DNA from: Flavobacteriales bacterium
Lineage (GTDB): Bacteria; Bacteroidota; Bacteroidia; JACJYZ01
Reading direction: 5' to 3'
Assembly: GCA_020435415.1 (NCBI GenBank)
Contig: JAGQZQ010000030.1
Coordinates: forward strand, 1-34,102
DNA: 34,102 nucleotides
Shown here: positions 28,563-30,241 of the stretch, in pieces
Layout of the letters: every line of letters begins with the position of its first letter
Position numbering within the stretch: position 1 is the stretch's first letter
Notes under the pieces: model-generated
The model's input: only the letters and a program-made list of their open reading frames with translations
Told to the model about the DNA's origin: nothing
The model's database searches: none
Made by a program: the position numbers and the translations under genes

Positions 28563-28593
28563 GCGTGGATTGCAGTTCGCGCTGATTATATAA

Positions 28594-28645
28594 TGTAGCT
28601 TCAAGCTACAAGATAGCCAGACGAAGGTGCAACCTTCGCCTAACG
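28594..28645 (+). repeat. REP element A
   Basis: A 52-bp bipartite element: palindrome GTAGCTTCAAGCTAC, spacer AAGATAGCCAGA, second hairpin CGAAGGT-GCA-ACCTTCG, and tail CCTAACG. It starts 32 bases after the asparaginase-type gene's stop and faces the DUF2513 gene. Four related copies lie at 29192, 29312, 30070 and 30190. Confidence 0.9.
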
Positions 28646-28797
28646 ATTCAGGGTCATTGGTCTGCCAATTGCAGTAAATAGAAATTAGTTGGTGATTTGC
28701 TTTAAGGTTGTTATGTAATTACTTACTGAAGATAAAAAATTGAAAGTGTGGCAGCAGTATTACCAATGAACAGAACCATTAATATACATAAGAACAT

Positions 28798-29166
28798 ATG
28801 CAAAGAGATATAGATTTAATCCGGCAAATACTGATTGAAGTGGAAAGGAAAAAATCACCAATGGGCTTGTTAGATATTGAGGTAGATAATTTTTCCAAGG
28901 AACAGATTTCTTACCATGTGAAATTGCTGGCAGAAGCTGGTTACCTGGATGCGAAGGACTTGATTACAAAAGATGGCTTTGAGTGGAAACCCGTTGGCCT
29001 TACATGGCTAGGACATGAGTTCTTAGATGCTGCAAGAGACAATACTGTTTGGAATAAGGCAAAGAAAAGTATTGGGAGTAAACTTGCTTCAACCTCCATT
29101 GAAGTGATTAAAGCGTTACTTATAAGTTTATGTAAGCAGGGACTGGGGATTGAAGACCATAGTTAA
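28798..29166 (+). CDS. DUF2513 family protein
   Basis: A 122-residue protein. MQRDIDLIRQILIEVE at the start and a winged-helix-like core (ISYHVKLLAEAGYLDAKD, then VGLTWLGHEFLDAARDNTVWNKAK) match the DUF2513 family. That family is frequent in mobile islands and near phage or plasmid genes, and has no settled function. The fold suggests a DNA-binding winged helix, which is an inference. It has no visible ribosome site and is more AT-rich than its neighbours, as is its leader (28680-28797). It is bracketed by REP A in plus orientation and REP B in minus orientation, so it looks like a recent arrival. Confidence 0.85.
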   Translation: MQRDIDLIRQILIEVERKKSPMGLLDIEVDNFSKEQISYHVKLLAEAGYLDAKDLITKDGFEWKPVGLTWLGHEFLDAARDNTVWNKAKKSIGSKLASTSIEVIKALLISLCKQGLGIEDHS

Positions 29167-29191
29167 CCGTAGCATATCAACCCCACCGATG

Positions 29192-29242
29192 CGTTAGGCG
29201 AAGGTTGTACCTTCGTCTGTTTATTCTGTAGCATTTGCTACG
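29192..29242 (-). repeat. REP element B
   Basis: Read on the minus strand: GTAGCAAATGCTAC, spacer AGAATAAACAGA, hairpin CGAAGGT-ACA-ACCTTCG, tail CCTAACG. The first palindrome differs from elements A, D and E (TT/AA changed to A/T) but keeps GTAGC/GCTAC. Same orientation as the transposase gene. Confidence 0.88.
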
Positions 29243-29311
29243 CAAAACCAACACCATCTTCAGCGTACTTTTTCCACCTCATCTCACCGTTGCATATCAA
29301 CCTCACCGATG

Positions 29312-29362
29312 CGTTAGGCGAAGGTTGCACCTTCGTCTGTTTATCCTGTAGCATGTGCTACG
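29312..29362 (-). repeat. REP element C
   Basis: Read on the minus strand: GTAGCACATGCTAC, spacer AGGATAAACAGA, hairpin CGAAGGT-GCA-ACCTTCG, tail CCTAACG. It starts exactly 120 bases after element B and lies 17 bases beyond the transposase stop codon (29379). Confidence 0.88.
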
Positions 29363-29378
29363 CAACCAACATCATCAC

Positions 29379-29945
29379 TCACCTCACCGTTTTCCACCTC
29401 AACACCGCCAGTTCGGTTTGAAACACAGCGTCTAATTCTGCATAACACCTGGCACTGCTGTAAAGATAATCTTCAGGTTTTTCCACCAGTCCGGCCCGTA
29501 CCGGGTTGTTATGGATGTATTCGATTTTCTGTTCAATGAACTTGTTTGAATATATAAGTTCTGCATGGTTCTCATGGGTCCATACCTGGAATGTTTTGTT
29601 GCGGTTATGTCCACGGGCGGCGTAGCGGAAGATCATCATCATCCAGTGCCTTCTACTCTCACTATTATCTTGAACGATGTTGAGTATTTGTTTTGCAGTG
29701 TGTCGTTTAAAATCCCTGATCGTTCCGCTTATGTCACCTTTTGTGCTTTGGGCAAGCAGGTGAATATGATTGGACATGATAACATAGGCATATATTTCTA
29801 ACCCTTTCTTATCACAACAGTATCTGAAGCCGTCAATGATAATGTCACGGTAGACTTTACGTGTGAAAATATCCGCCCATTGCACTACCTGGAGGGTCAT
29901 AAAATAAAGCGCAGATTGATCGAATATCTTATAACCGGTTGTCAT
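29379..29945 (-). CDS. REP-associated tyrosine transposase (RAYT, Y1 IS200-like)
   Basis: A 188-residue single-strand DNA transposase of the HUH class. The metal-binding motif is H60-I-H62 in VIMSNHIHLLAQ. The likely nucleophile is Y143 in IEYIHNNPVRAGLV, followed by the conserved YLYSSARCY. RAYTs bind and cut REP hairpins and are thought to spread them. The ATG at 29945 (MTTGYKIFDQSALYF) gives the family's normal length; a TTG at 29987 would add 14 residues. REPs C and B lie downstream and D and E upstream, in opposite orientation. The two catalytic motifs look intact and no frameshift is seen, so it may be active. The C-terminal codons (VLRWKTVR) lie inside the 120-bp tandem repeat. Confidence 0.92.
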   Translation of the reverse strand: MTTGYKIFDQSALYFMTLQVVQWADIFTRKVYRDIIIDGFRYCCDKKGLEIYAYVIMSNHIHLLAQSTKGDISGTIRDFKRHTAKQILNIVQDNSESRRHWMMMIFRYAARGHNRNKTFQVWTHENHAELIYSNKFIEQKIEYIHNNPVRAGLVEKPEDYLYSSARCYAELDAVFQTELAVLRWKTVR

Positions 29946-30069
29946 GGTGTTGTTCTGCTCAAATCTATAAAGACGGTCCGATAACAATGCGGAGTAAGTA
30001 CTTATATCCGATTAATATCGATTATCAAAACACGATGGCGTGGGAGAGGGTATTTTAAGATATGATTCA

Positions 30070-30121
30070 GGTAGCTTCAAGCTACAAGATAGTCAGACGA
30101 AGGTACAACCTTCGCCTAACG
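30070..30121 (+). repeat. REP element D
   Basis: GTAGCTTCAAGCTAC, spacer AAGATAGTCAGA, hairpin CGAAGGT-ACA-ACCTTCG, tail CCTAACG. It lies 125 bases upstream of the transposase start. A degenerate tail copy (AACCTTTGCCTAATG, about 30127-30141) follows. Confidence 0.9.
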
Positions 30122-30189
30122 GCAGAACCTTTGCCTAATGCCAAACAGGATTGAAAGGCTGTGGTTAAATATCTATCATGACACGTCAA

Positions 30190-30241
30190 TGTAGCTTCAA
30201 GCTACGGAATAGTCAGACTAAGGTACAACCTTCGCCTAACG
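30190..30241 (+). repeat. REP element E
   Basis: GTAGCTTCAAGCTAC, spacer GGAATAGTCAGA, then CTAAGGT-ACA-ACCTTCG with one mispaired base in the second hairpin, tail CCTAACG. It starts 120 bases after element D. GCAGAAC follows both D and E. A degenerate tail (AACCTTTACCTAAAT) lies at about 30258-30272. Confidence 0.88.

Follow-up and report, generated by a model that had tools for sequence, protein, structure and literature searches.

Double-hairpin repeats that flank a RAYT transposase and follow its clade in Bacteroidota

The closest described counterparts of the locus analyzed here are the RAYTs of subclass 2.6 (Quentin et al. 2018, PMC6006769), which correspond to group 5 of Bertels et al. 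2017 as cited there. In the text of that paper, these Bacteroidetes proteins are marked by NH[LIV]H, YIH[QN]NP and WQ motifs, a HuH-Tyr separation of about 82 residues (median 82) and an SS tail, and their repeats are described only as "atypical secondary structures". In TIRtrons, as the text of Di Nocera et al. 2013 (PMC3733652) presents them, RAYT-like genes are flanked by inverted repeats, some formed of two palindromes, that recur in genomes; most are placed in subclass 2.1 in the text of PMC6006769. Recognition by E. coli TnpA_REP involves a stem irregularity and a foot located 5' beside the hairpin (PMC8266576). PMC6006769 and PMC3733652 were the only relevant papers that we found on REPs in Bacteroidota. 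In the literature we found no biochemistry for subclass 2.6, and no description for RAYTs of the recognition of two hairpins per end.

The window is a stretch of 34,102 nucleotides, contig C30 of a 3.48-Mb Flavobacteriales genome in 194 contigs. Searches by family and by order returned this genome as the only one of its family and order, and within the genome collection it is an orphan lineage of its class. An initial annotation of the window had described five bipartite elements of about 52 bp around an intact HUH RAYT. All five lie at the places given, and the RAYT frame is open (Table 1). Two copies are found 3' of the gene in its own orientation and two 5' of it in the opposite one, as had been reported, with the fifth further out. 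The doubled elements on the two sides of the gene (29193-29363 and 30069-30240) have an equal spacing of 120 bp, which would fit the nesting of one unit within a second, or their joint duplication. The fifth element is separated from the RAYT group by a DUF2513 gene, toward which the element tails point.

Table 1. Positions of the RAYT gene, the bipartite elements and associated features. Positions are those of the window, except for the last row.
Feature	Position	Strand	Remarks
RAYT, TnpA_REP-like HUH/Tyr transposase	29379..29945	-	188 aa from the conserved ATG (probable start)
Bipartite element, 3' of RAYT, inner	29313..29363	-	covariance model E 5.7e-10; A = GTAGCACATGCTAC, B = CGAAGGTGCAACCTTCG, tail CCTAAC
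Bipartite element, 3' of RAYT, outer	29193..29243	-	covariance model E 5.2e-10; A = GTAGCAAATGCTAC; 120 bp from inner copy
Bipartite element, 5' of RAYT, inner, orientation opposite to gene	30069..30120	+	E 1.7e-11; A = GTAGCTTCAAGCTAC
Bipartite element, 5' of RAYT, outer	30189..30240	+	E 6.5e-10; 120 bp from inner copy; one B stem mismatch (CTAAGGT)
Fifth bipartite element, beyond DUF2513 gene	28593..28644	+	E 3.0e-11
Fifth element, hairpin A	28595-28609		
Fifth element, linker	28610-28618		AAGATAGCC
Fifth element, foot	28619-28621		AGA
Fifth element, hairpin B	28622-28638		
Fifth element, foot/tail	28639-28644		CCT-AAC
DUF2513 gene	28798-29166		
Putative unit [tail-B-A][tail-B-A]-RAYT-[A-B-tail][A-B-tail], GTT...AAC outermost	29193..30240	.	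from outward geometry and ends of paralogous units
Long hairpin B variants, own genome	G000:C17:4851-4931, C17:40395-40474, C80:5839-5919, C103:1823-1903, and others		

Each element is about 52 nt long and comprises hairpin A, a 12-nt spacer, hairpin B and an AAC tail. All five copies in the window read GTAGC...GCTAC, the spacer, CGAAGGT-NNN-ACCTTCG and CCTAAC, apart from the single stem mismatch of the 30189 copy. The general plan is 5'-[hairpin A]-nnATAnnn-NGA-[hairpin B]-CCN'-AAC-3'. The length of the spacer was given correctly in the initial annotation, but B had been read as a 7-bp hairpin and the spacer is in fact partly paired. N-G-A, preceding B, pairs with C-C-N' on its far side except at an A·C mismatch, and hairpin B consists of 9 bp plus this one fixed mismatch. 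Read on the opposite strand, the mismatch is a G·T wobble and the AAC tail forms a 5' GTT foot of B. The foot pair N-N' in the genome is A-T, C-G or G-C, with a few exceptions such as AGA/CCC; the search pattern placed no demand on this pairing. Hairpin A varies among copies in the genome (GTAGCTTAAAGCTAC, GTAGCAAATGCTAC and AAAGCGGAACGCTTT) and stays palindromic. Three parts are fixed across loci: the AAC tail, the A·C mismatch at the foot of B and, in the clade of the window, the ATA linker. No T run follows hairpin B. The CGAAGGT hairpin alone was rejected as the repeat, since most copies also carry hairpin A. Longer variants of hairpin B contain a nested loop hairpin (CCCGGATCATTGCGATACCGGG); they are about 28 nt longer and usually form one half of a pair.

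Folded as single-stranded DNA, the elements tested lie 4.3-5.7 standard deviations below dinucleotide shuffles, with none of 200 shuffles as stable. Covariation was analyzed in 33 elements, taken from the window genome and from others. In these 96.1% of cells are paired, compared with 72.8 when shuffled, the covariation score is 0.555 as against 0.146 in shuffles, and 12 of the 16 pairs exhibit two-sided changes. As these elements were selected via B and its foot, without using hairpin A, the latter provides the less biased test. Taken alone, hairpin A has two-sided changes in 6 of 7 pairs, and 92% of its cells are paired. The two hairpins had been described as unlike in sequence. This is true of the stems, but the tips of A and B are more alike within an element (similarity 6.12) than across loci (4.36±0.26; 0 of 2000 as high). 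Comparison with the reverse complement gives 4.89, below the same-strand value. The same-strand likeness points to a single protein surface as the reader of the two tips.

The RAYT frame runs from 29379 to 29987 on the minus strand, and up to the TTG at 29987 would encode 202 aa. The start is probably the conserved Met15, the ATG ending at 29945. The frame is intact, with an HUH motif N-H74-I-H76 and the catalytic tyrosine Y157 within YIHNNP. In an alignment of 74 relatives H74, H76, H159 and N161 are invariant, and Y157 is present in 73. In a profile search the protein scores 111 bits against NCBIfam NF047646 (REP_Tyr_transpos; cut-off 80), and it also matches the Y1_Tnp domain. Identity as an IS200/IS605 insertion sequence was rejected: the motif is Y---NP and not Y---Q, the family model NF033573 gives 26 bits, under its cut-off of 55, and the genome has a single copy of this RAYT type. 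The best PDB match of an AlphaFold2 model (mean pLDDT 86.5) is 4ER8 (E 5e-8), a complex of the E. coli RAYT with a REP hairpin, followed by the ISDra2 and IS608 transposases; 4ER8 is also the sole sequence relative in the PDB, with 18% identity. A distance of 80 residues separates H76 from Y157, and the SS tail motif is S177-S178. The W motif is W136-T137 (VWTHENH) rather than WQ, W-T being also the majority form among the aligned relatives. With NHIH, YIHNNP, the HuH-Tyr distance of 80, the SS tail and Bacteroidota relatives, the protein is likely a member of subclass 2.6/group 5 that departs in one consensus residue (WQ to WT). The genome also contains one IS200-like gene and two further RAYT-like genes (L024, G000:C55:15874-16407; L039, G000:C140:5244-5783), 43-44% identical to the window RAYT. 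Both adjoin another repeat, which has a single hairpin and reads GCTGGCGCGGA..TCCGTGC, and their HuH motif is SHLH.

If the island is a REPtron, further copies of its element are expected elsewhere in the genome. Counted over the whole genome with the covariance model R1 (E<=0.01), at least 60 copies are present. An open reading frame of at least 120 aa contains 1 of 30 sampled copies, compared with 71% of random positions. We collected 80 named Bacteroidota RAYT loci for comparison, in which the strict motif (foot, B and tail) matches 50 times, as against 0.05 expected from shuffles. From this excess, the folding relative to shuffles and the 60 copies in the genome, we conclude that the elements of the window are not due to chance. 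A generic search for adjacent double hairpins, made without any sequence requirement, gave a count of 92, compared with 0.85 in shuffles. These occur at 1.59/kb within 350 bp of a RAYT and at 0.06/kb beyond 1.2 kb on the same contigs; about half of 84 loci have no double hairpin by this test. Emticicia and Cytophagaceae RAYTs share the plan of the element, with CACA as the linker, and single hairpins flank several RAYTs of Flavobacteriaceae. The strict motif has zero matches in L153-L181; on inspection, the structures at L153-L155 are bipartite and their foot is paired throughout. The two-hairpin element had been proposed as a distinct class for this lineage. The related loci support both the class and the RAYT-REP island, and the class reaches far past the lineage. 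Judged by these comparisons, the two-hairpin design, with its sequences changed, flanks related Bacteroidota transposases and is a little-described class of mobile repeat, not a local oddity.

The type of element follows the RAYT tree. Elements of the ATA type cluster with the window, with 2 changes compared with 15.0 when shuffled (0 of 500), a few rows of the tree having been assigned to this type by inspection; a comparison of this kind had been proposed in the initial annotation. Copy number follows the RAYT type: genomes of the ATA clade have 1-81 copies in 11 of 11 cases, and those of other RAYT clades none in 7 of 7. The covariance model was trained on 1-3 elements from each of nine of the 11 genomes, L040 and L052 being outside the training set; presence in the nine is thus partly circular, while the further copies there are not. 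Within the clade, L040 and L048 have few or weak elements. The element would also not be expected to abound where RAYTs are lacking. In a class-wide sample of 296 genomes, 140 have a RAYT homologue and the element occurs in seven, all among the 140; it was found in 0 of 156 genomes lacking a homologue, in a many-genome scan that is insensitive. Neither of the two outcomes that the initial annotation had named as refuting its proposal was observed. At L043 the RAYT gene is split by a 322-bp direct duplication (97%) that bears an element-like hairpin. RAYT remnants adjoin elements at G297:C52:38341-38469 and C2:19379-19522, as expected of decayed units.

Neighboring elements have a preferred arrangement. 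In six genomes, 53 pairs of elements no more than 300 bp apart are tails-outward, with A inside, and three are tails-inward. The halves of a pair in the window genome are most often about 55 nt apart, with two separate A hairpins that differ in sequence. The spacing is 1-5 nt in the L046 genome (labelled Draconibacterium). In the Bacteroidales genome of L057 both halves share a single hairpin A; in the Bacteroidales genome G305 (L192, L193 and L194) seven pairs overlap by 19 nt, generating three-hairpin B'-A-B units. As single strands, paired units fold along their whole length. The pairs have the geometry of REPINs, being inverted doublets as the main arrangement, extragenic and foldable as a unit, and this is equal to the geometry around the RAYT gene. 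Some pairs in the window genome (L002, L020, L021, L031 and L032, on C9, C24, C35, C110 and C113) are alike for 20-60 nt past the tails (e.g. ACACCTCGGTATTACCATT). The true ends of these may therefore lie further out, within a larger repeat.

Two MAGs each have two intact RAYT paralogues. In L041/L048 (82% identical) the homology extends exactly from the GTT of one element to the AAC of the other. In L054/L055 (97.4% over 843 bp) it extends from CCCCGTGTT to AACGGGGGGC, ending within about 8 nt of the tails. In both cases the flanks outside the homologous blocks are unrelated. This is the pattern expected from transposition of a unit bounded by elements, though recombination between dispersed elements could also have produced it and, both pairs being from MAGs, binning error is a possible source. 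No contiguous match corresponding to an empty site for the L041 insertion was found among 40 relatives of that genome. With this one insertion searched, and the window genome alone in its family and order, movement of the window copy was not seen. The interval 29193..30240 may be read as such a unit from the ends of these two paralogue pairs, at or within 8 nt of GTT/AAC, and from its outward geometry, which is that of 53 of the 56 oppositely oriented neighbor pairs. That the island is self-contained, as the initial annotation supposed, stays a matter of inference which the tail-bounded paralogous units favor.

It is probable that the locus is a REPtron of Bacteroidetes RAYT subclass 2.6 (group 5) with cognate double-hairpin REPs. 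From the sequences, we interpret the elements as termini of a mobile RAYT unit and likewise of the non-autonomous REPINs belonging to it. Both a foot motif and an irregular stem are required by the E. coli RAYT (PMC8266576); the elements here have a fixed GTT/AAC foot and a fixed A·C (or G·T). The RAYT would bind the folded single-stranded element, reading the tips of the hairpins and this irregularity, and would have two binding sites at each end, A and B. Y157 would then cleave beside the outer GTT/AAC ends, the inverted pairs spreading as non-autonomous units and the whole RAYT-containing unit occasionally moving by the same route. By analogy the strand with the GTT foot would be closer to a REP, and the strand that is cut could be either one. 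More tentatively, these RAYTs could be more than domesticated genes, namely autonomous single-strand transposons with double-hairpin ends and the dispersed elements their non-autonomous derivatives, one protein or dimer reading two co-evolving hairpins at each end.

Other explanations may be considered. Hairpin A might be the center of a B'-A-B REPIN rather than a second site for the protein, making the bipartite element a half or a relic. The overlapping pairs of G305, with one A between two outward B hairpins, and the inside position of A in nearly all pairs agree with this. Yet in the window genome each unit has two separate A hairpins, some 55 nt apart and unlike in sequence, A covaries independently, and its tip resembles that of B on the same strand. 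We consider this a real but less likely possibility; as a history of the element it is compatible with the REPtron interpretation. It is distinctly less probable that the elements serve the host as terminators, mRNA stability elements or gyrase sites, with the RAYT a domesticated binder and the clustering near its gene reflecting regulation, not mobility. The elements are extragenic, RAYTs are often regarded as domesticated, and REPs elsewhere bind host proteins. Against this, hairpin B lacks a following T run, neighbors have a fixed tails-outward arrangement, two diverged RAYT units per genome have homology ending at the tails, and the type of element changes with the RAYT clade. An additional host role could still accompany mobility.

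The genome has other candidate enzymes in its two further RAYT-like genes and its IS200-like gene, and one of these might mobilize the dispersed elements, the RAYT locus being merely one site of accumulation. Since both RAYT-like genes adjoin a different single-hairpin repeat, and the elements follow the clade of the window-type RAYT (11/11 genomes as against 0/7), this seems very improbable. Least credible of all is a canonical REP, with GTAG as the foot of the GTAGC hairpin and a second hairpin present only by chance. The five copies in the window do start with GTAG beside a RAYT, and the initial annotation had linked this to the foot of REPs, but the resemblance is a coincidence. The GTAG is paired within the stem of A, where other copies of the genome (AAAGCGGAACGCTTT) and those of relatives have unrelated palindromes; the conserved parts are hairpin B, its foot mismatch and the AAC tail. 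In the text of PMC6006769, moreover, subclass 2.6 is without a GT[AG]G foot and its guide-reading region is unconserved. A canonical REP requires an unpaired 5' GT[AG]G foot, where here the foot is GTT/AAC, and was rejected.

The "atypical" repeats of the Bacteroidetes RAYT subclass can now be defined and searched for (model R1), and they follow a cognate rule. Relative to the text of PMC6006769, the definition of the repeat, the covariation, the cognate rule and the role at unit ends are additions. The natural covariation data are open to testing with purified protein. The presence in one genome of two RAYT units, each delimited by its own repeats, bears directly on the question of mobile versus domesticated RAYTs.

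Like IS200/IS605 elements (IS608, ISDra2), the locus has a transposase of HUH/Tyr fold whose gene has hairpins close to either end, but here the ends are mutually inverted with two hairpins each, and the family model scores under its cut-off. Like TIRtrons, it has genome-repeated inverted repeats, including two-palindrome forms, around RAYT-like genes; the covariation, linker and cognate rule found here are not in the text of PMC3733652. The REPINs of Pseudomonas and the BIMEs of E. coli (Bertels & Rainey 2011, PMC3116915) similarly spread as inverted, extragenic pairs that fold as whole units with a single-stranded feature at the outer ends. They differ from the pairs here, which have two hairpins per half, an outer foot GTT instead of GT[AG]G and, in some lineages, one shared central hairpin (B'-A-B). 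E. coli TnpA_REP (4ER8; PMC8266576) has the same fold, and its stem irregularity and foot have conserved equivalents here, but sequence identity is 18%, the elements here have no GTAG foot and a second hairpin, and the RAYT here sometimes exists in two intact copies bounded by its own elements. The closest correspondence is with subclass 2.6, in NHIH, YIHNNP, the HuH-Tyr distance of about 80, the SS tail, the occurrence in Bacteroidetes and the non-GTAG flanking structures repeated in the genome. The window protein differs from that consensus in having W-T, not W-Q, after the conserved tryptophan, and its repeats are defined beyond the text of PMC6006769 by two hairpins, a linker, a foot mismatch, the AAC/GTT tail, covariation, pairing and unit ends.
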